Shown in pieces: positions 6,105 to 44,700 of a stretch of 64,000 bases of DNA. The translations under genes were made by a program, and so were the position numbers. The stretch comes from Lysobacter sp. S4-A87. GTDB lineage: Bacteria; Pseudomonadota; Gammaproteobacteria; Xanthomonadales; Xanthomonadaceae. Position 1 is the first letter of the stretch. Every line of letters starts with the position of its first letter. Where the stretch lies: positions 186,001-250,000 of the forward strand of contig NZ_CP093341.1 in assembly GCF_022637455.1 (NCBI RefSeq), given 5' to 3'. The notes beneath the pieces were generated by a model. The model was not told where the DNA came from. It saw nothing but the letters and a program-made list of their open reading frames with translations, and did not search any database.

Positions 6105-6515
6105 ATGGCTAACGATCCACGCGTCCGCGAACGCCCCCTGTCACCGCACATGCAGATCTACAGCTGGCAGGTGCAGATGGTGACCTCGATCCTGCACCGC
6201 GGCACAGGCATCGTCCTGACCCTGGGCAGCCTGCTCGTTGTGTGGGCGCTGGTGGCACTGGCTGCCGGACCCGAATCCTGGAGCACCTTCACCGCCTGCG
6301 CGCGGTCGCCGCTGGGCTTCCTGGTGCTGTTCGGCTGGAGCTGGTCGCTGTCCTACCACCTGCTCAACGGCATCCGCCACCTGGTGCAGGACGCCGGCTT
6401 CGGCTACCGCATCGAATCGTTCGTGCGCAGCAGCTGGATCTCAGTCTTCGGCAGCCTGGTGCTGACGGTGATCATATGGCTGCTGGCGATGATGGCCCAG
6501 CGGGGTGGCGCATGA
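6105..6515 (+). CDS. sdhC: Succinate dehydrogenase cytochrome b556 subunit
   Basis: The 136-residue membrane subunit shows the SdhC pattern: [13 protein letters not shown] at the N-terminus, SILHRGTGI (residues 28-36) at the quinone site, and [11 protein letters not shown] (83-93) whose His85 is the expected heme ligand. Three hydrophobic helices follow the family layout. With SdhD it anchors SdhAB to the cytoplasmic membrane and passes electrons to ubiquinone. Its stop overlaps the sdhD start by 4 bases (ATGA), indicating translational coupling. Confidence 0.95.
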
Positions 6516-6907
6516 GCATCAACAACAACCGCCTGCGCAACCCGCTCAAGACCGCGCGCGGCCTGGGCTCGGCCAAGGACGGTACCCACCACTTCATCGT
6601 CCAGCGCGTCACCGCGATCGCGCTGGTGTTCCTGTCGATCTATGTCATCGGCCTGATCCTGTCGCTGATCGGCGACGACTACGCCAGCGTGCGCGCCACG
6701 GTCGGCCACCCGTGCAACGCCGTGCTGCTGTCGGCGTTCCTGATCGCCTCGTTCTGGCATGCCAAGCTCGGCATGCAGGTGATCATCGAGGATTACGTCC
6801 ATACCCCGGGGCTGGCGATGGCATCGCAGCTTGCGGTCGTTTTCGTTTGCGTTCTCGCGGCATTGGCCAGCGTGCTCGCCGTCATCCGCATCGCGCTGGG
6901 AGCCTGA
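6512..6907 (+). CDS. sdhD: Succinate dehydrogenase hydrophobic membrane anchor subunit
   Basis: 131 residues from the ATG at 6512, overlapping the sdhC stop by 4 bases. The N-terminus ([20 protein letters not shown]) and the segment [16 protein letters not shown] are characteristic of SdhD, with the latter placing a histidine for heme b. Three membrane helices are evident. It completes the quinone-reducing anchor of complex II. A longer same-frame reading beginning further upstream is not believable because it runs through sdhC. Confidence 0.95.
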
Positions 6908-6910
6908 TCC

Positions 6911-8719
6911 ATGGCCGCCGCCTCCAAGAACCCTGCTTATAAAATCATCGAACACACCTTCGACATGGTCGTCGTCGGCGCCGGTGGCGCCGGTCTGCGC
7001 GCGACCTTCGGCCTGGCCCAGAAGGGCCTGAAGACCGCCTGCATCACCAAGGTGTTCCCGACCCGTTCGCACACCGTGGCCGCGCAGGGCGGCGTCGCCG
7101 CGGCGCTGGCCAACATGGGCGAGGACGACTGGCGCTACCACTTCTTCGATACCGTCAAGGGCTCGGACTGGCTGGGCGACCAGGACGCGATCGAGTACAT
7201 GTGCAAGGAAGCCATCCCGGCGATCATCGAGCTGGAGCACTACGGCGTTCCGTTCTCGCGCACCGACGACGGCAAGATCTACCAGCGCCCGTTCGGCGGC
7301 ATGACCACCCGTTACGGCGAAGGCCCGCCGGCGCAGCGCACCTGCGCCGCCGCCGACCGCACCGGCCACGCCATCCTGCACACGCTGTACCAGCAGTCGC
7401 TGGCGCATGACGCGCAGTTCTTCATCGAGTACTTCGCCCTCGACCTGATCATGGACGCCAACGGCGCCTGCCGCGGCGTGCTTGCGCTGGACATGGCCGA
7501 AGGCACGCTGCACCTGTTCAAGGCGCAGGGCACGGTGCTGGCCACCGGCGGCTACGGCCGCGCCTACTTCTCGGCGACCTCGGCCCATACCTGCACCGGC
7601 GACGGCGGCGGCATGGCGCTGCGCGCGGGCCTGTCGCTGCAGGACATGGAGTTCGTGCAGTTCCACCCGACCGGCATCTACGGCGCCGGCTGCCTGATCA
7701 CCGAGGGTGTCCGCGGCGAAGGCGGCATCCTGCGCAACAGCAACGGCGAGCGCTTCATGGAGCGCTACGCACCGAGCGTGAAGGACCTCGCCCCGCGCGA
7801 CATGGTCAGCCGCGCGATGACGATGGAAATCCGCGAAGGCCGCGGCGTCGGCGAGTTCAAGGACCACATCCTGCTCGACCTGACCCACCTCGGCCCGGAA
7901 GTGATCCACGAAAAGCTGCCCGGCATTGCCGAGTCGGCGCGCATCTTCGCCAACGTCGACGTCGAGAAGCAGCCGATCCCGGTGATTCCGACCGTCCACT
8001 ACAACATGGGCGGCATCCCGACCAACTACCACGGCGAAGTGGTGCAGCTGCGCAACGGCAACCCGGACGAAGTCGTCCCGGGCCTGTACGCGATCGGCGA
8101 AGCGGCCTGCGTGTCGGTGCACGGCGCCAACCGCCTGGGCTCGAACTCGCTGCTCGACCTGGTCGTGTTCGGTCGCGCCGTCGCCAACCGCGCTGCCGAG
8201 ACGGTCAAGGTCGACGGCAAGCAGGCGCGCCTGGCCGGCGATGCCTGCGACTCGGCCCTGGCGCGCCTGGACAAACTGCGCAACGCCAACGGCGGCACGC
8301 CGACCGCGGTCATCCGCGACAAGATGCAGCGCACGATGCAGCTCGACGCCGCGGTGTTCCGCACCGGCGAGACGCTGGCTGACGGCGTGCGCAAGATGCG
8401 CGAGATCCACGCGTCGTTCGGCGACGTCAAGGTTGCCGACCGTTCGCTGATCTGGAACTCGGACCTGATCGAGACCTACGAGCTGTCCAACCTGCTCGAC
8501 CAGGCACTGGTGACGATTGTTTCTGCCGAGAACCGCACCGAATCGCGCGGCGCCCACGCCCGCGAGGACTTCCCGGACCGCGACGACGCCCACTGGCAGA
8601 AGCACACGCTGTGCTCGATCAGCGAGGCTGGCGATACCGCCATCGATTACCGCCCGGTGCACATGTACACGTTGAGCGACGACGTGGCCGTGGTTCCGCC
8701 GAAGAAGCGCGTCTACTGA
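6911..8719 (+). CDS. sdhA: Succinate dehydrogenase flavoprotein subunit
   Basis: The 602-residue subunit oxidises succinate to fumarate in the TCA cycle. It has the dinucleotide-binding GAGGAG (23-28), the [10 protein letters not shown] segment with His54 as the expected covalent FAD site, [13 protein letters not shown], and the C-terminal capping helices. Length is close to the usual 588-600. It begins 3 bases after sdhD and ends 15 bases before sdhB. SdhE, encoded just downstream, is the known factor that promotes the flavin attachment. Confidence 0.97.
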
Positions 8720-28776: not shown

Positions 28777-28910
28777 GAAATGGGCGCGCAGTATACCCCA
28801 AGGCGGCCCTGTGTTGGCAAGGGGCAAGTGACATCGCGTCTGGCACGGCTTGTTCAGGGGAGCAGAACGCTTTGCCGCTACACTCCCGCGCTCTGCTCAG
28901 GGGGAGCAAC

Positions 28911-29744
28911 ATGTTCGACCTACATTGCCATCTGCTACCGGCCATCGACGATGGTGCGGTGGACCTCGACATGGCACTGGAAATGGCGCGCATGGCAGCG
29001 GCCGATGGCATCGTCACCGTTGCCTGCACGCCGCATATCTATCCCGGCGTGTACGAAAACACGGCCGACGGCATCCGTGCCGCGATCGCGGCGTTCCAGG
29101 CGGAGCTCGACGAGCGCGGCATCGCGCTGCGGCTGGTCGAGGGCGCCGACGTCCATTTGGCTCCGGACCTGCTCGAAGGCATCCGCGGCGGTCGCGTGCC
29201 GACCCTGGCCGGGTCGCGCTACCTGCTGCTGGAGCCGCCGCACCACGTCGCGCCGCCGCGCTTCGAGGAGGCCGTCTTCGAGCTGATGGCTGCCGGAATG
29301 GTACCGGTGATTACCCACCCCGAGCGCCTGACCTGGGTGGAAACCCACTATGAGGTGTTCGCGCGCCTGGCCGAGCGTGGCGCCTGGATGCAGATCACGG
29401 CCGGGGCGGTGACCGGGCGGTACGGCCGTCGGGTCAAGTACTGGGGCGAGCGTTTCGTTGGCGAGGGCCTGTGCATGATCCTGGCGACCGACGCCCACCA
29501 CCCGCAGCGGCGCCCGCCGTTGCTGGCCGAGGCCCGGGATGCCGCAGCCGCACTGGTGGGAATGGAAGAAGCGGTGCACATGGTCGATACCCGCACCCGG
29601 GGGATCGTCGACGACATCGCTCCTGAGAATTTGCCGCCGCCGTTGTTCAGGCGGACGGGCTTCAGTTCGCAGTTTCGTGGCCCGGCCGCGTCTGCGGGCG
29701 AGGGCGTTGTCGGGCGTTGGTTGCGCTCGATCCGGGGGAAGTGA
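28911..29744 (+). CDS. CpsB/YwqE-type tyrosine phosphatase (PHP domain)
   Basis: 277 residues from ATG 28911, which has GGGGGAG 5 bases upstream; a longer reading is possible but lacks this site. MFDLHCHLLPAIDDG places the metal-binding His5 and His7 of the PHP fold, and TPHIYPGVYEN, ITHPERL and ATDAHH complete the metal site. In Gram-positive bacteria CpsB/YwqE dephosphorylates the polysaccharide tyrosine kinase. Here it is the first gene of the locus, two genes ahead of a Wzc-like kinase, so the same role is inferred. Confidence 0.88.
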   Translation: MFDLHCHLLPAIDDGAVDLDMALEMARMAAADGIVTVACTPHIYPGVYENTADGIRAAIAAFQAELDERGIALRLVEGADVHLAPDLLEGIRGGRVPTLAGSRYLLLEPPHHVAPPRFEEAVFELMAAGMVPVITHPERLTWVETHYEVFARLAERGAWMQITAGAVTGRYGRRVKYWGERFVGEGLCMILATDAHHPQRRPPLLAEARDAAAALVGMEEAVHMVDTRTRGIVDDIAPENLPPPLFRRTGFSSQFRGPAASAGEGVVGRWLRSIRGK

Positions 29745-29807
29745 GGAAAAGTCTTAGTTCCGCGGGTCCGGCAAAAGTGGGACCTACGGCATAATTGAAG
29801 TGTGCAG

Positions 29808-29825
29808 CCGTACGATTCCGTACGG
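29808..29825 (+). promoter_or_regulatory. Perfect inverted repeat ahead of the Wza-like gene
   Basis: CCGTACG and CGTACGG (7 bp) around a 4-base loop, 12 bases after a possible -10 box CATAAT (29790-29795; no convincing -35). It lies 35 bases before the chosen start and could be an operator or leader hairpin for the export genes. Confidence 0.5.
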
Positions 29826-29859
29826 AAGTTTGCGACAGAATTTCTTTTGGGGATGGCAC

Positions 29860-30546
29860 TTGTTTAGTGTTTTTCGTGTGTGGGCGCTTGCCTGCCTGAT
29901 GCTGCTGTGCGCCTGCTCCAGTACGGGTGCAAACAAGGAAGAAGCAGCGACGCTGCCGGAAGGCGATCCGGTTGCGGCGGCCATGGGTCGTAGCGAATAC
30001 CTGATCGGCCCGAGCGACCTGCTGGCAGTGACGGTGTTCCAGATCGAGGACCTCAATCGCGAGGTCCGGGTCAACAACGCCGGGCAGATTGCCCTTCCGT
30101 TGATCGGCGCCGTTCCCGTCGCCGGTCGCACCGTGGGCGAGATCGAGCAGGACATCGCCGGCCGCTACCAGGCGCGCTACCTGCAGGACCCGCAGGTGAC
30201 CGTGTTCGTGAAGGAATTCTCGAGCCAGCGCGTGACCGTGGGTGGCGCGGTGAAGAAGCCGGGCATCTTCCCGATGACCTCGCGCCTCAGCCTGCTGCAG
30301 AGCCTGGCACTGGCCGAAGGTTTCAGCGACGTCGCCAGCCATCGCAACGTGCTGGTGTTCCGCACCATCGGTGGCGAGCGCAAGTACGCGCGCTTCGACG
30401 TCGCCGCAATCGAGAAGGGTGAGCACCCCGATCCGCAGATCTTTGGCGAGGACGTGATCGTGGTCGACACCTCGATGGGCCGCCAGACGCTGCGGACGAT
30501 GATCCAGCTGGCGCCGTTCATCGCGGTGTGGAGATCCTACAATTGA
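29860..30546 (+). CDS. Polysaccharide export lipoprotein, Wza/GumB family
   Basis: 228 residues from the TTG at 29860, chosen because GGGGAT lies about 7 bases upstream and the product begins directly with a lipoprotein signal (VWALACLMLLCACSS; Cys19, or Cys17, as the lipid site). A GTG at 29800 would add 20 residues. The mature part has a polysaccharide export domain (EYLIGPSDLLAVTVFQIEDL) and a SLBB-like domain (VTVGGAVKKPGIFPM). It should form the outer-membrane outlet for the polymer. It is shorter than Wza and similar to GumB. It overlaps the kinase gene. Confidence 0.88.
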   Translation: MFSVFRVWALACLMLLCACSSTGANKEEAATLPEGDPVAAAMGRSEYLIGPSDLLAVTVFQIEDLNREVRVNNAGQIALPLIGAVPVAGRTVGEIEQDIAGRYQARYLQDPQVTVFVKEFSSQRVTVGGAVKKPGIFPMTSRLSLLQSLALAEGFSDVASHRNVLVFRTIGGERKYARFDVAAIEKGEHPDPQIFGEDVIVVDTSMGRQTLRTMIQLAPFIAVWRSYN

Positions 30547-32696
30547 ACGCCGTAGTTGAACCGATCGAGTTGTTGCGCCAGGACAGCCGCGACGACGATG
30601 AGATCAACCTGCTTGAGTACTGGCGCATCCTGCGCGAACGGCAGTGGTGGGTGGTCGGCACCGCGCTTGCGGTGGTGTTCCTGACGCTGGTCTTCACTCT
30701 GCTGGCGACGCCGGTCTACCGGGCAGGCTCGACCCTGCAGATCGAGCGCGACACGATGAAGATCGTGGCGTTCGAGGGCCTGCAGCCGACCGAGTCGCCG
30801 ATGGACCGCGACTTCTACCAGACCCAGTACGAGCTGCTGAAGAGCCGCTCGCTGGCGCGCCGCGTGGTGCAGGATTTGCGTCTGCCGGCGAACAAGCAGT
30901 ACGAAAAGGACATGGCCAAGGTCGATGAGGCCCTGGCCGAGACGGCCAACGGCCAGGCCGTGGCCGCGTCCACCAGGCAGCAGGCGCGTGAAGCGGCGAT
31001 GATCGAGCTGGTGCTCGAATCGCTGAGCATCGAACCGGTGCGCAACTCGCGCCTGGTCCGCGTCAACTTCGACTCGCCCGACCCGGTGCTGGCGGCGCGC
31101 GTCGCCAATGCCTACGCCGACGGCTTCATCGCCAGCAACCTGGAACGCCGCTTCGACGCGTCGTCGTTCGCCAAGAAGTACCTGGAAGAGCGCCTGGCAC
31201 AGCTCAAGGGCAAGCTCGAGGACTCCGAGAAGGAACTGGTGGCGTTCTCCGAGAGCGAGCGCATCGTTTCCGTAGGAGACGACAAGCCCTCGCTCGACGC
31301 GCAGAACCTGAGCGACCTCAATGCCGCACTCGCTGCGGCCCAGGGCTCGCGCATCAAGGCCGAGGCGATGTGGGCCCAGGCCAGCGTCGGCAACGGCATG
31401 GGCCTGCCGCAGGTCGTGGCCAACCAGCTGATCCAGAAGCTGCGCGAGCAGCGCTCGACGCTGATGGCCGAGTACCAGAACAACCTGGGCACCTACAAGC
31501 CCGACTATCCGAACATGGTGCAGTTGCGCAACCAGATCGACGAGGCAGATCGCCAGATCAACGTCGAGGTCGGCAACATCCGCGACGCCATCCAGTCCGA
31601 GTACCAGGCCGCGCTGGCGCAGGAAACGCTGCTGCGCGAGCGCATCACCGGCCTCAAGGGCGACGTGCTCGATCTGCAGAGCCGCTCGATCCAGTACAAC
31701 ATCCTGCGCCGCGAAGCCGAAACCAATCGCCAGCTCTATGACGCGCTGCTGCAGCGTTACAAGGAGATCGGCGTGGCAGGCGGAGTCGGCGCCAACAACG
31801 TATCGGTCATCGACCGCGCGATCGCCCCCGAGAAGGCCAGCTCGCCGCGCAAGCTGCTGAACCTCGCGGTCGGTCTGTTGCTGGGCGGATTCCTCGGTGT
31901 CCTGCTGGCGTTCGTGCTGCATCACCTCGACAACACGGTGCACGACCCGAAGGCGCTGGAGGCCATCACTGGCCTGCCAGTGCTGGGCGCGATCCCGCGC
32001 CTGGAACCGGGCGTCACGCCCGCCCAGGCGGCCGTCGACCTGCGCTCGGCCTTCGCCGAAGCATATCGGTCGGTGCGCACGGCACTGCAGTTCGCCACGG
32101 TGCACGGCCTGCCGCGCAGCCTGCTGGTCACCAGCGCCAGCCCCGCCGAAGGCAAGAGCACCACGGCACACGAACTGGCGCGCAACATCGCCCAGCTCGG
32201 CAAGCGCGTGGTGCTGGTCGATGCCGATTTGCGCAACCCGTCCGTGCACAAGATCACCGGGCTTTCGTCGGCGCTGGGCCTGTCCAACCTGCTGGCCGGT
32301 GCGCGCGAGCTCGGCGACGTCCTGCAACACCTGCCGAACGAGAACCTGAGCGTGATCACGTCCGGTCCGCTGCCGCCGAATCCGCCGGAGCTGCTGGCCG
32401 GAGATTCCCTGGGGAAGCTGCTTGCGCAGCTGCGTGAGCAGTTCGACATGGTGATCCTCGATGGCCCGCCGGTACTGGGTCTGGCCGACGCGCCGCTGCT
32501 CGCCAACCAGGCGGAGGCGACGATGCTGGTGGCCGCTGCCGAAGACACCCGCAACGACGCCTTGCGTGTTGCACTGGATCGACTGAAGGCGGCGCGTGCG
32601 CGCGTGCTTGGCGCGGTGCTGACCCGCTTCGACCACAAGCGCAAGGGTGAAGGCTACGGCTACACCTACTATGCCTACGGTGGCTCGGCCGACTGA
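30528..32696 (+). CDS. Polysaccharide copolymerase / tyrosine autokinase, Wzc/GumC family
   Basis: 722 residues. An N-terminal Wzz domain sits between two membrane helices (about 42-62 and 445-465) with long coiled coils between, followed by a BY-kinase domain: Walker A SASPAEGKSTTA near 535, Walker A' VVLVDADLRNPS near 562, and Walker B VILDGPP near 640. The C-terminus GEGYGYTYYAYGGSAD is the tyrosine cluster that gets phosphorylated. It sets chain length and opens the export path with the Wza-like protein. The GTG start overlaps that gene by 19 bases; TTG 30543 is an alternative. Confidence 0.92.
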   Translation: MEILQLNAVVEPIELLRQDSRDDDEINLLEYWRILRERQWWVVGTALAVVFLTLVFTLLATPVYRAGSTLQIERDTMKIVAFEGLQPTESPMDRDFYQTQYELLKSRSLARRVVQDLRLPANKQYEKDMAKVDEALAETANGQAVAASTRQQAREAAMIELVLESLSIEPVRNSRLVRVNFDSPDPVLAARVANAYADGFIASNLERRFDASSFAKKYLEERLAQLKGKLEDSEKELVAFSESERIVSVGDDKPSLDAQNLSDLNAALAAAQGSRIKAEAMWAQASVGNGMGLPQVVANQLIQKLREQRSTLMAEYQNNLGTYKPDYPNMVQLRNQIDEADRQINVEVGNIRDAIQSEYQAALAQETLLRERITGLKGDVLDLQSRSIQYNILRREAETNRQLYDALLQRYKEIGVAGGVGANNVSVIDRAIAPEKASSPRKLLNLAVGLLLGGFLGVLLAFVLHHLDNTVHDPKALEAITGLPVLGAIPRLEPGVTPAQAAVDLRSAFAEAYRSVRTALQFATVHGLPRSLLVTSASPAEGKSTTAHELARNIAQLGKRVVLVDADLRNPSVHKITGLSSALGLSNLLAGARELGDVLQHLPNENLSVITSGPLPPNPPELLAGDSLGKLLAQLREQFDMVILDGPPVLGLADAPLLANQAEATMLVAAAEDTRNDALRVALDRLKAARARVLGAVLTRFDHKRKGEGYGYTYYAYGGSAD

Positions 32697-33909
32697 CGGG
32701 CCGCTGGCACGCCGCTTCCGGATGGGAGCAGGCCTGCTGGCGGTCACCGCGATGGCCTCGTTCGCCTGGCAGCAGGTCCAGGTAGACGCGGACGTGGGCG
32801 CAGCCCAAGGGCCCGACCGGCGCGTAGCCAGTGCCCGCGGCCTGGCCAACGATGCGGATGCATTGACGGCTGTCGCCCGAGAAACGCTGCGCGAGCGACC
32901 CATCGATGGCGGCGCTTTCCGCATGCTGGGGCTTGCCGCAGCGCTGGAGTCGAACTCCGGCCGTGCCGGCGCGCTCTACCGCACCGCCGCCCGACTTGCC
33001 CCGCGCGACGACATCGCCCAGGCGATGCTGATCGATGCGTCGTTCGCGAAGGGAAGGGTGGGCGAGGGCGTGACCCACGTCGATGCACTGCTGCGCATCG
33101 CGCCGCACATGCGTGAGTCGCTGTTGGCTTCATTGATTCCATACGTGGGTAATCCGCAGCTGCTCGATGCGCTGGTGCAGGCGCTCGCTGCGGACCCGCC
33201 GTGGCGCGGGGCGCTCGCGCCAGTGCTGCGTCATGCCGATTCGGCCCAGTCGGAAACACTTCTGGCCGCACTGACGCAGGCCGTACCACTGACCCCGGCC
33301 GAACTTGCGGCTCGTGTCGAAGCGCTGACGGCACTCGGCGAACCGGTGCGCGCGCGCGAGATCTGGCTGCAGTCATTGCCGGAGGTAGACCGGGCGCTTG
33401 ATGGCCTGCCATTCGATGGCGGGTTCGAGGGCGTCGACCAGACCGATGGCTTCGGCTGGAAATGGAGCGAGGAACCCGGCGTGACCGTTGCCTTCGATGG
33501 CGTCGATCCGGCGCAGGGGCAGCAGTCCCTGCAGGTGGACTTCAGTGGTCGCGCGGTGCGCTTCGTCGGGCCGCGCCAGCGCCTGGTGCTTGCTCCCGGC
33601 ACCTATGAAATCAGCAGTGCATCGGACGATCGCACCGGCTCGCCGCGTCGTTTCGCATGGTTCGTGCAGTGCACGTCGGGCCCGACGCTGGTCGAGTTGG
33701 ACCTGCCTGCAGGCAGCTCGACGCAGTGGCAAACGGCACGCGCAGAGTTCGATGTGCCGCCTGACTGCCAGGGTCAACAACTGACGCTTCGTCACACCGG
33801 CCGGTCGATGGCCGAGCGACAGATCAGCGGTGTTTTACGGGTCGATGATGTGCAACTGAGAAAACTTCCCAACCGCGTCACATTGCCAAACCCATCACAT
33901 CCCGAATAG
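32671..33909 (+). CDS. Exported or anchored TPR-like protein of the exopolysaccharide locus
   Basis: About 412 residues from ATG 32671 (GTG 32680 is an alternative); the start lies inside the end of the kinase gene. One hydrophobic segment (GAGLLAVTAMASFAW) near the N-terminus suggests a membrane anchor or signal. Residues about 40-240 are alanine-rich helices resembling TPR repeats, and from about 250 a beta-rich domain (FGWKWSEEPGVTVAFDGVDP) resembles a carbohydrate-binding sandwich. No named function known to me. Position after the Wzc-like gene suggests a periplasmic role in polymer assembly or export. Confidence 0.7.
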   Translation: MPTVARPTDGPLARRFRMGAGLLAVTAMASFAWQQVQVDADVGAAQGPDRRVASARGLANDADALTAVARETLRERPIDGGAFRMLGLAAALESNSGRAGALYRTAARLAPRDDIAQAMLIDASFAKGRVGEGVTHVDALLRIAPHMRESLLASLIPYVGNPQLLDALVQALAADPPWRGALAPVLRHADSAQSETLLAALTQAVPLTPAELAARVEALTALGEPVRAREIWLQSLPEVDRALDGLPFDGGFEGVDQTDGFGWKWSEEPGVTVAFDGVDPAQGQQSLQVDFSGRAVRFVGPRQRLVLAPGTYEISSASDDRTGSPRRFAWFVQCTSGPTLVELDLPAGSSTQWQTARAEFDVPPDCQGQQLTLRHTGRSMAERQISGVLRVDDVQLRKLPNRVTLPNPSHPE

Positions 33910-33955: not shown

Positions 33956-34225
33956 ATGAAGCAGATTTTGTTCGGCCTGGTTGCCGTCTTTGCATTTGGC
34001 GCGGCATCCGCGCAGACCGCGCAGCCGGCCGCCGAGGCTCAGCCGCAGGAACAGGCCGCTCCGGCCAAGCCGGCGGCACCGGCGAAGAAGAGCAAGGCCT
34101 CCAGCTCGACTGTCCTGGCCGTTGGCGCTGGCGTGGCCGCTGTTGCCGGCCTGGCTGCTGGCGGTGGTGGCGGTGGTGACGACAAGCCGGCACCGGCGAA
34201 GCCGCCGAAGCCGTCGAGCCCGTAA
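33956..34225 (+). CDS. Small exported protein with Gly-rich helix and PPKPSSP tail (first copy)
   Basis: 89 residues. A signal peptide (MKQILFGLVAVFAFGAASA) is followed by an Ala/Pro/Gln/Lys-rich linker, a hydrophobic helix (STVLAVGAGVAAVAGLAA), six glycines, DD, and the C-terminus AKPPKPSSP. No known family. The tail is shared with the gene at 34512, whose last 28 bases are identical (34198-34225 and 34898-34925). AGGGAG about 8 bases upstream supports the start. It is the last gene before a 286-base spacer. I infer an envelope protein attached to the polysaccharide machinery. Confidence 0.75.
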   Translation: MKQILFGLVAVFAFGAASAQTAQPAAEAQPQEQAAPAKPAAPAKKSKASSSTVLAVGAGVAAVAGLAAGGGGGGDDKPAPAKPPKPSSP

Positions 34226-34235
34226 CGGCATTGAG

Positions 34236-34330
34236 TTGCGCCAGGCGATCGTCTGGCGCAATGGCGGTCGGGTTGCTCAACGCAACCCGCTACCGCTCCG
34301 AAGTACAGGCTAACTTTGACGCTCAGCGTC
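34236..34330 (+). other. Hairpin-dense spacer between the two small exported proteins
   Basis: Three inverted repeats follow one another: TTGCGCCAG/CTGGCGCAA (34236-34261, 9 bp plus a G-T pair), GGGTTGC/GCAACCC (34270-34288) and GACGCT/AGCGTC with a one-base centre (34318-34330). None is followed by a clear T-run. They may slow or stop transcription after the first small gene, stabilise its mRNA, or bind a regulator. Confidence 0.6.
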
Positions 34331-34424
34331 ACTGTTGGTCGTTACTGGCGCAGCGTGGTCTGCGTCATGCAGCAGCCCCCCCAATAAAACCGTCCGCAGC
34401 ACGACGCGATCGGCTTGGGGAGTG

Positions 34425-34478
34425 TTAACGCTCGCACAATTTCACGTAGAATTTACACGTGCGCCAGGGGGTCTGGCG
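34425..34478 (+). promoter_or_regulatory. Likely promoter and leader hairpin of the second small protein gene
   Basis: TTAACG (34425-34430) and TAGAAT (34447-34452) are spaced 16 bases apart. A leader hairpin CGCCAG/CTGGCG (34462-34478) follows, with the same stem core as the hairpin at 34236. This would give the gene at 34512 its own transcription start inside the locus. Confidence 0.55.
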
Positions 34479-34511
34479 TGACCCCAAATAAAGTTGATCT
34501 GGAGCAGTGCA

Positions 34512-34925
34512 ATGAAGTCGCTGATCGTTGGAATGTTTGCGTTGACCCTGGCCGGTGGTGCGCTGGCGCAATCTCCGAAGGTGCTTGTCCGTGCCGATAG
34601 CGGCGACGTGCAGGTTGCTGGCCGCGCAGTCGAGAAGGCCAACAGCTCCGGCGCCGAAGCGGGCGACGTGGTTGTGGTCAATGGCGGCGAAGCCTATGTG
34701 ACCTATTCCAACGGTTGCACCGTCAAGGTGACCGGCAGCTACACCGTGCAGGACGCCGCGCCTGCCAAGTGCCCGAGCCTGGGCAAGGTCGGTTCCGACA
34801 CCAACTACGCAATGGTCGGCACCGGCATCGCCGTTGCGGCTGGCGCGCTGGCCCTGGCCAGCGGTGGTGGTGGTGACGACGCGCCGGCAGAGACGCCGAA
34901 GCCGCCGAAGCCGTCGAGCCCGTAA
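34512..34925 (+). CDS. Small exported protein with FecR-like core and PPKPSSP tail (second copy)
   Basis: 137 residues from ATG 34512, which follows GGAGC at a good distance (an in-frame start 18 bases earlier would spoil the signal peptide). After a signal peptide (MKSLIVGMFALTLAGGALA) comes a beta-rich core (VLVRADSGDVQVAGRAV, then EAGDVVVVNGGEAYVTYSNG) that follows the FecR-domain pattern, with two cysteines that could bridge. A hydrophobic helix, four glycines, DD and the tail PKPPKPSSP end the protein, like the gene at 33956. Function unknown; the C-terminal half is clearly related to its neighbour. Confidence 0.78.
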   Translation: MKSLIVGMFALTLAGGALAQSPKVLVRADSGDVQVAGRAVEKANSSGAEAGDVVVVNGGEAYVTYSNGCTVKVTGSYTVQDAAPAKCPSLGKVGSDTNYAMVGTGIAVAAGALALASGGGGDDAPAETPKPPKPSSP

Positions 34926-35039: not shown

Positions 35040-36377
35040 ATGCGTTTGAAGGGCGCCAAGGGGACGCCTGATACGGCCGCCGAACTCGCAGCAGCGCTGT
35101 GTCTGGCAGCTGCGCTGCTGGCCGGTGGTGGATCGCGTGGGGCAGGTGACCTGGTCGTGCACCTGGCTGCCTTGCCGGCGCTGCTGCTGGCCGTCATGCG
35201 TTGGCGCTGGGCACCTGCTTCGCGGGCGCAACGTGTCGTCGCCGTGGTGTGCGTGAGCGCAATCGCACTCGCCTTGCTGCAGCTGTTGCCGCTACCGCCG
35301 ACGCTGTACACGCTGTTACCCGGCCGCGACACCGTGCTCGCCGATCTGGCACAGGCAGGCCAGCCGCACGGCTGGTTGCCGCTGACGCTGGATCGTTGGG
35401 GGACGGTGCGTGCACTGCTGGCGATGGTGGTGTTTGCCTCGTTCTGGGCGTTGGCTTGCACGCTGACGCATGCGCCGCGGTTGCGCCTGCTCAAGCTCGC
35501 GCTTGTCGTGGCGACGCTGACTGCTTTGCTGGGTTACGCCCAGTCTGCCGCCGGTGCCTACTCGCCGTTGCGGTTCTACGACTTCCACCATCCCATCGGG
35601 GCGATTGGCCTGTTCGCCAACCGCAACCACTTCGCCTGCCTGATGGCGATGCTGCTGCCATTCGCAATCGCGCTGGGCGTTCAGGGGCAGGTCCAGCGAC
35701 GCGTTCCTGCCGCCCTGGCGTGGTACTCGGTGGCAGCGATGCTGTTCCTTGCGGCTGCGCTGAGCTTCTCGCGCACCGGTCTGGCGCTTGCTTGCACGAC
35801 GGCGCTCGCCGGACTGCTGATCCTCACGTCGCGAACCGGGGCTGCTTCAAACCAGGGTCGCATTCGTCGCTGGGCGCCGCTGGCGAGCATGGCAGTAGCC
35901 ATCGCCGGCATCGCCGTGTATGCCGGGGACGGCATCAGTCAGCGCCTGCAGAAGGATCCGTTGGAGGATCTGCGCTGGCAGTACCTGCGCTATGGCTGGG
36001 ACGCTGCACAGGCCTATCTGCCCTGGGGCAGCGGCTGGGGCAGCTTCAAGTCGGTCTATGCCCCGTTTGAACCGATCAACTCGATGCTTGAAGTGTTTGC
36101 GCTCCACGCGCACAACGACATTCTTGAAACGTTGATCGAAGCAGGGTTGCCCGGATTCGTCCTGTTGTTGACGCTTTTGGTCACTGTGATATGCGTCACA
36201 CGAAAAAATCTTATTGATCGCACTTTTCACGGGCCGATACTCGCTGCAGCGGCGATCGCCGCGTTCGTCCCGATGGCGCATTCCCTGGTCGACTACCCCT
36301 TGCGTACCCATGCGGTCGCGGTGGTGTTCGCGCTGGTGCTGTCCTTCCTCCTGACGAGCGCGAGTGACCCGCGATGA
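35040..36377 (+). CDS. O-antigen ligase/polymerase-family membrane protein (Wzy_C)
   Basis: 445 residues with about eleven membrane helices and the Wzy_C signature around ANRNHFACLMAMLLPFA, then LSFSRTGLAL, and a periplasmic loop ending HAHNDILETLIEAGLPG. Such proteins polymerise or transfer polysaccharide units. A second, unrelated-looking polymerase is encoded at 43417, so the two may divide the work (polymerisation versus ligation) or belong to different polymers. GAGG precedes ATG 35040 by 5 bases. Its stop overlaps the first of two possible starts of the next gene. Confidence 0.85.
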   Translation: MRLKGAKGTPDTAAELAAALCLAAALLAGGGSRGAGDLVVHLAALPALLLAVMRWRWAPASRAQRVVAVVCVSAIALALLQLLPLPPTLYTLLPGRDTVLADLAQAGQPHGWLPLTLDRWGTVRALLAMVVFASFWALACTLTHAPRLRLLKLALVVATLTALLGYAQSAAGAYSPLRFYDFHHPIGAIGLFANRNHFACLMAMLLPFAIALGVQGQVQRRVPAALAWYSVAAMLFLAAALSFSRTGLALACTTALAGLLILTSRTGAASNQGRIRRWAPLASMAVAIAGIAVYAGDGISQRLQKDPLEDLRWQYLRYGWDAAQAYLPWGSGWGSFKSVYAPFEPINSMLEVFALHAHNDILETLIEAGLPGFVLLLTLLVTVICVTRKNLIDRTFHGPILAAAAIAAFVPMAHSLVDYPLRTHAVAVVFALVLSFLLTSASDPR

Positions 36378-36391
36378 CAGGAGAATCACGC

Positions 36392-37828
36392 ATGTTGTTC
36401 TCGCCAATCCGGGCAGAGTACGCAGTCGATCGTGCGTCGTTGAACAAGTTCTCGGCCCTGTTCGGGCTGATGCTCCGCATCTTCGACGTAGCGGTTGTCA
36501 TCGTCGTGGGTGTCATGGCGTACTGGTTGCGATTCGATACCGTCGACATGCCGCTGGAGTTCCGCCAGGCGGTAGCCCGCGGCGTGTTGTTCACGCTGAT
36601 GTCGATGGGGACGTTCTCGATGTATCGCAGCTGGCGCGGCATGGGCGTCGTCGGCGAAGCGTTCAAGCTGACCGGGGTGTGGACTACGGTCTTCGTGCTC
36701 GGCGTCCTCTACGTTGCACTGCTGAAAGTGCAGGGCGTGACCTCGCGTCTGTGGTGGGGTTATTGGTTCGTGGGCACGGTGTTTCTATCCGGCGCCGGCA
36801 GGCTTGTCTGCCGCCAGGCGGCTGCCTGGGTCCGTGAGCGTGGCCTGGATGTGCGTACAGCCGTCGTCATCGGTTCCAATGCCGACGCTGCGCATATCGT
36901 GCGTACGCTCGAGCGGCAGCGGTGGGCCGGGATCGAAGTCCGCGGCTGGTTCAGCACGGCCGACGGTCTGCAGCCTGCACTCGCGGGAGTTCCGCACCTT
37001 GGGGATCTGGCCGCGCTCGCGCCGTATATCGAATCGCATCACATCAGCCAGGTGTGGATCGCGCTGCCGGTTAGCGAGCAGGCAGCGATTGATCGCATCG
37101 TCACCGATCTGGACCACTCGACCGCTGACATTAAGTTCGTGCCTGACCTGTTCGGCCTGCAGCTGCTTAACCACTCCGTCGAGCAGATTGCGGGCTTGCC
37201 GGTCATCAATCTCCGTGCTAGCCCACTCGACGGAGAAGCGCGCATGGTGAAGGGCTTGGAGGATCGAGTGCTTGGCGCGCTAATTCTGGTGCTGATTGCG
37301 CCGCTGCTTGCACTGATCGCCATTGGGGTGAAGCTTAGTTCGCCCGGCCCGGTGCTATTCAAGCAGAAGCGACACGGACTGGACGGCAAGACCATCAAGG
37401 TCTGGAAGTTCCGCAGCATGCGCCTGCATGACGAGCATGCCGGGCAGGTGACGCAGGCGACCAAGCGCGATCCGCGCATCACGGCCTTCGGGCGGTTCCT
37501 GCGCCGTACCAGCCTCGATGAGTTGCCGCAGTTCATCAATGTGCTGCAGGGCAAGATGTCGATCGTCGGGCCGCGTCCACATGCGGTTGAGCACAACCAT
37601 CACTACAAAGTGATCGTGCAGAACTACATGCAGCGCCATCGCGTCAAGCCTGGCATCACTGGTTGGGCCCAGGTGAATGGTTTGCGGGGCGAGACCGACA
37701 CCGTCGACAAGATGGCCGCTCGCGTCGAATACGACCTGCATTACATGCAGAACTGGTCCCTTTGGCTCGACCTCCGAATAATTGCGATTACGGTTGTCAA
37801 GGGGTTCATTGGTAAGGCTGCCTATTGA
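36392..37828 (+). CDS. Undecaprenyl-phosphate sugar phosphotransferase, GumD/WcaJ type
   Basis: 478 residues from ATG 36392, preferred over ATG 36374 because AGGAGA stands 8 bases before it. Four N-terminal helices, a CoA-binding-like domain ([18 protein letters not shown]) and a C-terminal bacterial sugar transferase domain with [22 protein letters not shown] and [14 protein letters not shown]. It starts repeat-unit assembly by loading a sugar-1-phosphate (usually glucose or galactose) on undecaprenyl phosphate at the inner membrane. Confidence 0.92.
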
Positions 37829-42943: not shown

Positions 42944-43424
42944 GGAGGAGCTCCGCCACTGGCTGTTCTGGATACTGAAGCAGCTGCCTGGGTCCGTGGG
43001 GATCGTCTTGCGGAATGCCGTCCTTCCGTATCGAAACGGTCGGAATGTTCGGGTGTGGGATGGGGTTCAGATCGATTACCCGTCAAGACTCGTGCTTGGT
43101 TCCGATGTTTCGGTGAATCGAGGGTGCATTCTTAACGCAGGAGGCGGGATTGAGATCGGCAGTCGGGTCCTGATTGGGCCAAATGTCACCATCTATAGTC
43201 AGAACCATAGGTTTGGCCCGGGTGTCGAAGTGTTCGAGTCGGGTTATGTGTACAAGAAGGTGGTCATCGGTGACGGTGTCTGGATTGCTGCCGGCGCCTT
43301 CATCCTTCCCGGCGTAACCGTTGGTAGCAGGGCAATCATTGCAGCGGGTTCTGTCGTGACGAAGAATGTCCCCGCGGATGTCGTTGTCGCCGGCAATCCC
43401 GCAAGGATAGTGAAGAATGTTTAG
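42933..43424 (+). CDS. Hexapeptide-repeat acyltransferase
   Basis: 163 residues from ATG 42933 (a second ATG follows at once), overlapping the flippase by 11 bases; TAAGGAGGAG after the start belongs to coding sequence. From residue about 55 the left-handed beta helix repeats are clear (VNRGCILNAGGGIEIGSRVL), with NHRF as the likely catalytic histidine region and VVAGNPARIVKN at the end, as in CysE/WbbJ-type enzymes. It probably acetylates a sugar of the repeat unit. Confidence 0.88.
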   Translation: MMFKEELRHWLFWILKQLPGSVGIVLRNAVLPYRNGRNVRVWDGVQIDYPSRLVLGSDVSVNRGCILNAGGGIEIGSRVLIGPNVTIYSQNHRFGPGVEVFESGYVYKKVVIGDGVWIAAGAFILPGVTVGSRAIIAAGSVVTKNVPADVVVAGNPARIVKNV

Positions 43425-44700
43425 ACCCGCGGCGGCCGTGGGGATCTCGTTCGTCATTGGGCTGGCGTCACTGGCAGTTGACCTGTCGTGGGTGCAGTAC
43501 CTCCTGCTGTTTGTGATTCTCGCGGTACCGCTTCCGTTGCTTGAGCCCAAGGGGCGATTGTTCTTTCTGCTGGTCGGCGTTTACGTGGCTCTTGGCGTGC
43601 TTCCCTTCTCGAATTACCGAGGGACCCTTGCTACGGCCACGATCTCTGAGTACGTGTTGATGTCGTGCGCGGTGCTCTGTTCAATCGGAATTGCGGACTT
43701 CATGTTTGATCGAGGGGGTCGATCAAACATTGAATACTCCGCACTTTCCTGGGGGACAAAGCACGTTTACGTCTTTGCATTCATATGCACGATCTCTTGG
43801 TTGTTTCTGGTAAAGGTTTATGGGCAGCATGGCATCCTGCTGTTCAATCAGTTCGGACGTTTTGACGTTGGCAGCTACGATGCGTACTTGGTTAAAGCTG
43901 CCAGTTACCTGCCTCTGTACTTCGTTGCATCGCGGCGCTTCCGCTACAAGCTCCGAGACTTTCTTCTATACATTCTGATGCCGCTCCTGCCAACGTTGCT
44001 GATAGGTAGTCGAGGCGGCGTGTTGATGGTCCTGCTGGGCGTGTGTTGCGTCGTCTATGTCAGGATCTCTGTGCATGGTCGGCCCGGCGATGCGAGCCGC
44101 TTGAGGCGCGTGCTCGTTGGCTTGATTCCGTTGGGTTATGCGGTGGTTGCCTTGGGGTTCTTTCTAAGGCGCGGGTCCGATGGTGTCTACATGACCCCAA
44201 GCGAACTGCACGCAGCATACTTCAACACGCCGATACTCGTTTCCTACCTTGTGATGCCGATCCACTTGGGTTTGCGCGAAACCGTTGGATTGACCAACTT
44301 CATTCTTGAGCGCGGTGTCGTGAATGATGTGGTCACCTATCCACTCTTTGTTGCTGACTTCTACACGCTCCAGGCAGGCGAGCAAATATCTGCTGGTCGT
44401 GCATTGGCTTCAGTTGTTGGGTCGGTCGCGGACGGTGGGCTCACGCCAGGACTTCTCGGCGCGCTGAGACTCGACTTTGGCTTATCACTTTCGTTGATTG
44501 TGGTGATGCTGCTCTCCTTCTCCGTGGCAGCGACTGCCCGTTTGGCTGAGTCTCGAGGTCTCTGGACGATGCTTTGGGCGCTCACGCTTATACAGTTCGT
44601 CCAGCTATTTCATCGGGGCTTCGCGAAGCCCGAGTACTTGATGGCCTACATGGTTGTCTTGATTGCATGGTTAGTCCCCAGATTGGTGCTGAAAGTATGA
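43417..44700 (+). CDS. Putative oligosaccharide repeat-unit polymerase (Wzy-like)
   Basis: 427 residues, ten or more hydrophobic helices, no sequence motif strong enough to name. The layout with a longer loop around LVKVYGQHGILLFNQFGRFD and GSRGGVLMVLLGV resembles the EpsG/Wzy group. Position between acyltransferase and glycosyltransferase, and the need for a polymerase alongside Wzx, support the call. It overlaps its neighbours by 8 and 4 bases. Confidence 0.7.
   Translation: MFRPAAAVGISFVIGLASLAVDLSWVQYLLLFVILAVPLPLLEPKGRLFFLLVGVYVALGVLPFSNYRGTLATATISEYVLMSCAVLCSIGIADFMFDRGGRSNIEYSALSWGTKHVYVFAFICTISWLFLVKVYGQHGILLFNQFGRFDVGSYDAYLVKAASYLPLYFVASRRFRYKLRDFLLYILMPLLPTLLIGSRGGVLMVLLGVCCVVYVRISVHGRPGDASRLRRVLVGLIPLGYAVVALGFFLRRGSDGVYMTPSELHAAYFNTPILVSYLVMPIHLGLRETVGLTNFILERGVVNDVVTYPLFVADFYTLQAGEQISAGRALASVVGSVADGGLTPGLLGALRLDFGLSLSLIVVMLLSFSVAATARLAESRGLWTMLWALTLIQFVQLFHRGFAKPEYLMAYMVVLIAWLVPRLVLKV

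Follow-up and report, generated by a model that had tools for sequence, protein, structure and literature searches.

A conserved serine-bearing C-terminal tail links small exported proteins to a Wzy_C-family enzyme in exopolysaccharide export clusters

Two small exported proteins in an exopolysaccharide export cluster

The 64,000-nucleotide stretch of Lysobacter sp. S4-A87 DNA analyzed here (the window) carries an exopolysaccharide export cluster that includes two small genes, termed S89 and S137 (Table 1). A preliminary description of the sequence had reported both genes, their coordinates, and a common ending in which a helix and a run of glycines are followed by DD, a linker, and PPKPSSP, and the list of open reading frames bears this out. 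The two genes had also been placed between a Wzc-like kinase and a sugar transferase. This placement is broadly correct, but the gene directly downstream of S137 encodes a Wzy_C-family protein (WzyC), and the transferase gene comes after it. By hydropathy, both small proteins have the signal-peptide-like start that had been claimed for them, and each also has a further hydrophobic segment some 20 residues before the C-terminus. Signal peptides and helices were assigned throughout by our own hydropathy rules.

Table 1. Genes and sequence features of the export cluster, in window coordinates
Feature	Position	Strand	Description
PHP-family (Cps4B-like) protein	28872-29744	+	NF041488 E 4.6e-28, below curated cut-off; synteny
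Wza-like export protein	29800-30546	+	PF02563; synteny
Wzc-like autokinase/co-polymerase	30528-32696	+	TIGR01007 above cut-off, TIGR01005 below; synteny
TPRx	32647-33909	+	Weakly matches TPR models; C-terminal half unassigned; conserved neighbor upstream of the tail gene
S89 gene	33956-34225	+	89 aa, exported-looking; Pro/Ala-rich middle, C-terminal helix, Gly-DD-PPKPSSP tail
S89 tail	34160-34222	+	GGGGGGDDKPAPAKPPKPSSP
Identical 29-base 3′ end, copy 1	34197-34225	+	In S89
S137 gene	34512-34925	+	137 aa, exported-looking; small beta domain, C-terminal helix, Gly-DD-PPKPSSP tail
S137 beta domain, about residues 24-86	34581-34769	+	Strands in the predicted model; relatives weakly match the LapA retention module
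S137 tail	34863-34922	+	GGGGDDAPAETPKPPKPSSP; Ser136 invariant in 48 homologues
Identical 29-base 3′ end, copy 2	34897-34925	+	In S137
WzyC	35040-36377	+	Wzy_C/O-antigen-ligase family membrane protein, proposed tail reader; PF04932 E 1.8e-18
Initiating undecaprenyl-phosphate glucose phosphotransferase (WcaJ type)	36374-37828	+	TIGR03023 E 7.5e-162
Candidate Wzy polymerase, separate from WzyC	43417-44700	+	TIGR04370 E 4.4e-5, below curated cut-off; no Pfam match

The last 28 bases of the two genes had been described as identical. The identity is real, but its length is 29 bases when the stop codon is included; the last 28 bases of this common 3′ end have no further copy in the window. When a profile of the helix and tail was searched against the 3.89 Mb genome, the two strong matches fell at the places of S89 and S137 (E 7.8e-17 and 1.1e-12), and the next match had an E value of 0.066. 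The coding pattern P-K-P-[S/T-like]-[S/T-like]-P-stop has three matches in the genome, the third of which (at 752610) ends no open reading frame and was rejected as a chance occurrence.

The predicted structure of S137 contains strands between residues 24 and 78, with pLDDT values below 50 at residues 94 to 122 and of about 61 to 68 over the last 20 residues. A Foldseek search with this model returned nothing below 0.001, and a Pfam search with the S137-type ectodomain returned only aRib, below its cut-off. The 286-base gap between the two tail genes (34226-34511) includes one sigma-70-like site (34425-34452; one found, 0.2 expected), which may provide S137 and WzyC with a promoter of their own.

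The tail is conserved independently of the ectodomain

The PPKPSSP ending given in the preliminary description proved to be a local form of a more general arrangement, wherein a helix is followed by a Gly/Asp-rich segment and then by x-Ser-Pro or Ser-Arg. All 62 distinct tails from the family carry a serine within the last 11 residues, and in 43 of them this serine is penultimate. The last residue is most often proline (35 tails), followed by arginine (16) and phenylalanine (7). The frequency of proline would fit a translation signal, wherein proline before the stop codon slows termination to time membrane insertion. We find this scarcely credible, given the tails that end in arginine or phenylalanine and the serine that is kept further in.

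Conservation of the serine extends to 48 diverged homologues of the beta type, with identities to S137 down to 20%, among which Gly51 and Ser136 are the only two invariant columns. The profile used to find beta-type proteins was derived from an alignment (A5) whose rows were chosen by eye. Homologues that retain the protein and lack the tail had been named as evidence against a functional tail. Ser136 is kept in all 48 of these proteins, but distant beta-domain proteins in four genomes (G431, G307, G497, and G370) lack the tail or end differently. In the related genomes G497 and G370, the beta-domain protein (L297:6257-6967 and L298 6505-7149, oriented) ends in helix-GGSSASDH or helix-GGGGSSTTNH and is encoded upstream of Wza/Wzc, in a stretch without a WzyC match. 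This ending is a GfcA-like form of the tail layout.

The tail is found on proteins with very different middles. The 90 tail proteins, drawn from 75 sources, divide into 72 that match the beta-ectodomain profile and 18 that do not, the latter being Pro/Ala-rich, His/Lys-rich, Ala-rich, or otherwise different when inspected by eye. The helix belongs to the shared module together with the tail, in the order helix, Gly/Asp, Ser tail. Judged from these sequences, the tail is a module grafted on unrelated ectodomains.

Tails within one genome also resemble each other more closely than expected. Fourteen genomes have at least two tail proteins, giving 16 pairs, and the two members of a pair agree on average at 3.5 of their last four residues, versus 2.47 for reshuffled partners (0 of 10000 reshuffles reach 3.5). 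Where the ectodomains of a same-genome pair have no detectable similarity, the last four residues are identical in six of six cases (duplicate L186 removed).

A recent local duplication or gene conversion, acting without selection on the amino acids, could produce such endings. This possibility is consistent with the 29 identical bases in the window genome and with the lack of any codon difference behind the shared suffix there (0 of 8 codons), in G022, and at L242. In 11 of 14 same-genome pairs (one duplicate removed), however, synonymous codons differ behind the shared suffix. An S89/S137-like pair in one genome of the same genus has 7 C-terminal residues in common with 2 codons differing, and a pair in Lysobacter prati has 9 in common with 1 codon differing. 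Together with the serine kept in the 48 diverged homologues, the tail proteins with unrelated ectodomains, and the recurrence of the same gene pairing in other classes, these differences leave duplication with next to no probability as a full explanation, and we rejected it as such. Because 0 of 8 codons differ in the window genome, the two endings in that one genome may still owe their identity to local conversion.

Proteolytic or transpeptidase sorting signals also characteristically combine one constant C-terminal module with varied ectodomains, and the tail might represent a new class of these. Known sorting tails of the PEP-CTERM-like type consist of a motif, then a helix, then a basic end. 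The order found here is the reverse, and the mean net charge of the 90 tails is -0.89 (43 negative, 20 positive, and 27 neutral). Moreover, no exosortase- or rhombosortase-like match was found among the export-module proteins scanned, and the invariant position is the serine, not the helix border. Thus, we consider a sorting signal of this kind very unlikely.

The tail is linked to WzyC

With S137 as bait, matches were found in 2 of 12 genomes of the same genus and in 15 of 297 genomes of the family. WzyC adjoins the match in 14 of these 15 family genomes, and in the remaining one (G203) the match lies at a contig end. With WzyC as bait, matches were found in 53 of the 297 family genomes. The loci considered are the window and 53 fetched loci, two of which come from a single genome (G257). 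At 51 of these 54 WzyC loci, an adjacent gene encodes an exported-looking protein with a C-terminal helix and Ser tail; this count comprises 49 of 53 loci by a screen wherein tails were read by eye, one locus of G257 (L029) recognized by eye, and the window. The exceptions are G004, wherein part of the locus is deleted and WzyC is reduced to a fragment, G090, wherein the frame of the tail gene is broken, and G149, wherein the space between TPRx and WzyC is too small for a tail gene. Only the last is a clean exception. A further genome, G291, which is 57% complete, has a WzyC match, and no tail ORF was found in it. WzyC was the bait for most of these loci, where its presence is a matter of construction, and the S137, TPRx, and tail profiles served as the other baits. 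At one locus (L098, in G247), an ORF recognized by eye as transposase-like lies between the tail gene and WzyC (6225-7759 of the oriented locus).

The same association is evident within the genus. The helix-plus-tail profile gives two matches each in G000 (the window genome) and G001 and one each in G002 and G003, with E values from 6e-17 to 1e-9, and the best match in the other eight genomes has an E value of 9e-4. These four are the only genomes of the genus in which most of WzyC is matched, in G003 as two pieces. G009 has lost the region that follows an incomplete Wzc. The preliminary description had called for a check of whether the tail co-occurs with one particular enzyme, and the 51 of 54 loci, the 14 of 15 in the reverse direction, and the pattern in the genus tie the tail to WzyC. 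Its suggestion of a sorting or docking signal thus stands as far as a signal tied to one enzyme is concerned, but the order of the module is the reverse of that in known sorting tails.

Other proteins of the cluster might instead be the readers of the tail. If Wzc, Wza, or TPRx recognized it, the adjacency of WzyC would reflect a shared operon only. TPRx is found in 55 and WzyC in 53 of the 297 family genomes, with 50 common to both, as such a reading would have it. The five TPRx genomes outside the WzyC list include G134 and G203, wherein the sequence stops at contig ends, and G118, wherein a tail-like protein ending in NPISQ precedes the contig end. The last two are G291, with the WzyC match described above, and G010, which keeps PHP, Wza, Wzc, and TPRx yet lacks WzyC and the tail gene together. 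Among distant loci longer than 10 kb (six duplicates removed), Wzc is present at 25 of 26 with a tail but also at 44 of 52 without one nearby, and TPRx is present at 22 of 26 with a tail versus 24 of 52 without. TPRx therefore goes with the tail, which suggests that the whole module travels together. The related helix proteins of G497 and G370, near Wza/Wzc in a stretch without a WzyC match, would suit a reader other than WzyC, whereas locus L212 has a tail gene and WzyC but yields no match to Wza, Wzc, or TPRx. On this evidence, we judge a reader other than WzyC to be improbable.

The pairing of WzyC with a tail protein recurs in other gamma-, alpha-, and betaproteobacteria. Across 146 loci (duplicates removed), candidate proteins encoded near the start of WzyC (a 1.65 kb zone reaching from 1500 bases before it to 150 bases after it) end in a tail in 64 of 98 cases, versus 16 of 381 elsewhere on both strands, where a tail was defined as an S-P or S-R ending, optionally plus E or Q. 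Outside the family sample, the corresponding values are 31 of 44 and 9 of 233. Several of the tail-ending outliers beyond this zone prove to be additional tail proteins encoded in the same cluster. At L204, L213, L228, and L259, the tail gene (endings TPASP, SSASP, NSVSR, and NGVSR) is not beside WzyC but several kilobases off or on the opposite strand, and at L088 a further tail gene, ending in VPVSR, lies 7 kb upstream.

In the class sample, the WzyC profile matched 69 of 369 genomes. A tail protein is present at 9 of the 29 class loci prepared in addition to the window, and all nine are among the 12 best WzyC matches (E 6e-63 or better). Their endings are KPASP, PVSAQ, PPASPQALSN, SVSPE, AISPQ, PMSAE, AISPE (twice), and PPVSR. 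The other three of the 12 best matches (G310, G598, and G369) have no tail gene within a larger stretch, and the second WzyC match of G473 has no tail. From the opposite direction, the profile for beta-type tail proteins matched 34 of the 369 genomes, and 10 of the 14 best matches adjoin WzyC. The other four are those of G497, G370, G307 (on a short contig), and G431; among weaker matches, G324 and G550 were inspected.

In a collection of named genomes, a strict tail was detected by screen at 29 of 80 loci, or 23 of 74 after removal of six duplicates (L185-L188, L210, and L220). These are the same genomes as six of the family loci, including Lysobacter profundi, antarcticus, daejeonensis, and bugurensis, and the counts were corrected for them. 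Tail-bearing named loci include Lysobacter, Stenotrophomonas, Hyphomicrobium, Methylocystis, Aquabacter, Ancylobacter, Novosphingobium, and Caenimonas, and no tail was found at loci titled Sphingomonas. In this collection, the named genome closest to the window is that of Lysobacter prati (83% in WzyC).

A tree was prepared from 155 of 164 WzyC rows, after dropping three proteins under 280 aa (L069, L258, and L260) and the six duplicates. A tail gene was assigned to 83 of the 149 labelled rows, and the remaining 66, distant relatives of WzyC, have none nearby. Five rows without upstream sequence and L252, a likely false positive, were not counted. By hand, L076 (frame broken) was labelled as having a tail, L029, L084, and L098 were given tails by eye, and L170 and L235, whose serine is further in, were labelled as tail-less. 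The label requires 15 changes on this tree, versus about 49 when labels are shuffled (0 of 500 shuffles as low); when duplicates are kept, the values are 16 and 50.4. On this tree, the tail is a heritable trait that was gained or lost repeatedly.

The Lysobacter sp. S4-A87 genome has five Wzy_C matches, the fifth of them below the family cut-off. Three proteins other than WzyC match above it, and inspection by eye revealed no adjoining tail gene for any of them. Their upstream neighbors are apparent glycosyltransferases or aroA. One (L134:5898-7424; C1:251897-253423), about 1.9 kb past the window end, is located between apparent aroA and serS genes, without a tail gene. Another (L132:5127-6785; C1 near 963155) has apparent glycosyltransferases nearby; its matches to the exosortase-associated O-glycosylation ligase model TIGR03097 (E 7e-15) and to TfpM (E 1e-6) do not reach the cut-offs.

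Possible role of WzyC and comparison with known systems

Wzy_C is the only Pfam domain above cut-off in WzyC. The predicted structure of the protein (pLDDT 90) has as its nearest solved fold the O-antigen ligase WaaL (7tpg; Foldseek E 4e-6, TM 0.49), and thus WzyC has both the domain and the WaaL-type fold expected of an O-linking oligosaccharyltransferase. A profile of WzyC from 14 rows (A2) also matches the oligosaccharyltransferase 9rmk (E 2e-6). This structure was not recovered in PDB searches with WzyC profiles of 51 rows (A3, which omits L069, L029, and L100 of the 53 fetched family loci) or 10 rows (A4). Because the match depends on the alignment, a kinship of WzyC to PglL rather than WaaL is at best tentative. 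An H-x3-D/E motif near the end of WzyC is also present in relatives without a nearby tail gene. Its H-x3-DYP form was rejected as a marker of tail-bearing WzyC proteins, since tailed DF..PAN types exist, as do DYP types without a nearby tail.

At these loci, a Wzy_C enzyme adjoins a protein with a conserved serine near its C-terminus, and the pairing points to a conserved enzyme-partner pair that is no artefact of duplication. We propose, with a probability of roughly 0.45, that S89 and S137 are dedicated acceptors of WzyC, which would be an O-linking ligase of the WaaL/PglL/TfpO kind. From this arrangement we infer the topology of the tail, covalent transfer, the acceptor site, and a tethering role as follows. 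Sec would export both S proteins. Their last residues would then be held out to the active face of WzyC in the periplasm by the Gly-DD linker and the helix, which is weakly hydrophobic and rich in Gly and Ala. WzyC would transfer polymer, or single repeat units, from its carrier undecaprenyl diphosphate onto the serine just before the C-terminal proline or arginine. The S protein might then tether or prime the exopolysaccharide as it passes through Wzc/Wza.

Several observations count against such a ligase. By the usual rule, a protein with a cleaved signal peptide and one helix has a cytoplasmic C-terminal tail, which would hold the tail away from the active site. The tails are on average acidic, which argues against a cytoplasmic location without settling the matter. 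WaaL as the nearest fold and the absence of the Pfam domains of PglL also weigh against the proposal, as do the recovery of 9rmk with just one of three alignments, the tail-less distant relatives of WzyC, the WzyC match in G291, and the association of TPRx with the tail.

The main rival is that WzyC is a polymerase, or a second one, and that the tail protein is a non-covalent partner whose helix and tail dock on it in the membrane. The ectodomain would then regulate polymerization or hand the chain to Wzc/Wza. The co-occurrence data fit this docking as they fit a ligase, and the inclusion of the helix in the shared module is compatible with membrane docking. In addition, a Sphingomonas Wzy of the O-antigen-ligase family, a possible relative of WzyC, is essential for exopolysaccharide according to the available text of PMC11340318, which also counts against a ligase. 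However, docking by itself leaves unexplained an invariant serine near the C-terminus amid a variable linker and last residue. The cluster also includes a separate Wzy candidate, albeit one below cut-off (Table 1), and thus WzyC need not be the polymerase. Although it is the principal competitor, we regard docking as unlikely on balance.

If the ligase proposal is extended to all three classes, a polysaccharide-protein linkage of alpha-, beta-, and gammaproteobacteria can be envisaged, wherein each exopolysaccharide module includes a dedicated O-ligase together with between one and three interchangeable acceptors that have only a helix and an x-Ser-Pro/Arg ending in common. The polymer on the tail would exit via Wza, the ectodomain, resembling a retention module, would serve as a periplasmic plug, and the polymer would be covalently anchored to the cell. 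We offer this extension as speculation that is rather doubtful as a whole, although a folded ectodomain that acts as a periplasmic plug while the polymer leaves is an attractive idea. In our judgement, little is settled about how Gram-negative cells retain or release Wzx/Wzy-type exopolysaccharides. The tail, which accompanies one ligase-like enzyme in three classes, suggests a testable answer, namely that the polymer may be coupled to protein. If true, this would be a widespread and undescribed kind of polysaccharide-protein linkage, and it would supply a short glycosylation tag for C-termini along with an enzyme that might accept a range of polymers. We recognized no description of such a pairing in a search of the literature covering neither preprints nor most subscription papers.

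Each known system shares some features with this pair. Half of the S137-type proteins (24 of 48) give a match to the LapA retention module (NF033682) with an E value no higher than 0.1, the best being 2e-6. In contrast to LapA, S137 has just 137 residues and a membrane helix, and the window protein is not among the matches. WaaL belongs to the same family as WzyC (PF04932) and transfers to the LPS core (PMC3643930, in the part available), whereas the gene for WzyC sits in an exopolysaccharide export module beside that of a tail protein.

For PglL of Neisseria meningitidis, the accessible part of PMC3643930 lists R224, H349, and P313 as residues in common with WaaL, and G316, G318, H400, E404, and P406 as particular to PglL. 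In the 14-row alignment, the first group aligns with R245, H358, and P328 of WzyC, and the second with G330, G332, H414, D418, and P420. PglL R298 is one column off WzyC R312, and Q178 and N180 fall outside the alignment. The differences from PglL are the alignment dependence of the match, the adjacency of the presumed substrate gene to WzyC, and the absence of PglL_A (PF15864) and Wzy_C_2 from the window WzyC and 10 members scanned at E 1.

The closest functional parallel to the proposed ligase is with TfpO/PilO and TfpM, Wzy_C-family O-ligases that, as far as PMC12645811 was available, modify a C-terminal serine (TfpO) or serine or threonine (TfpM) of pilins and, like PglS, are often encoded close to their substrates. 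We propose the same logic of a ligase gene beside its acceptor gene for WzyC, with acceptors that are not pilins. The TfpM model NF058641 scores 10.1 bits on WzyC (E 0.29), versus a curated cut-off of 600. Unlike pilins, the putative acceptors have a C-terminal helix and no pilin match above cut-off (the weak ones are archaeal Pilin_N for S89, E 0.09, and FimA for one relative, E 0.0076); their genes lie in an exopolysaccharide export module, and the serine is penultimate or further in instead of last.

Finally, GfcA and YjbE of Escherichia coli are likewise small exported proteins of capsule or exopolysaccharide export loci, with a hydrophobic C-terminal stretch, a Gly/Asp turn, and a Ser/Thr tail. 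They differ in that their tails end in TTR and STQ and no Wzy_C protein is annotated in the 10 kb inspected. There is no detectable sequence relation between S89 and YjbE (BLASTP E 88), the YjbE/GfcA family model PF11106 scores 10.1 bits on S89 (E 1) versus a gathering score of 27.9, and this model matched 0 of 56 class genomes, with a positive E. coli control. In the portion of PMC8592465 available (Larson 2021), gfcABCD are described as genes without a known function, and modification of the Ser/Thr-rich GfcA by O-antigen is suggested. According to the accessible text of PMC3853201, enteropathogenic E. coli loses its group 4 capsule when gfcA is deleted, and the deletion can be complemented, which indicates that a small protein of this kind can matter.
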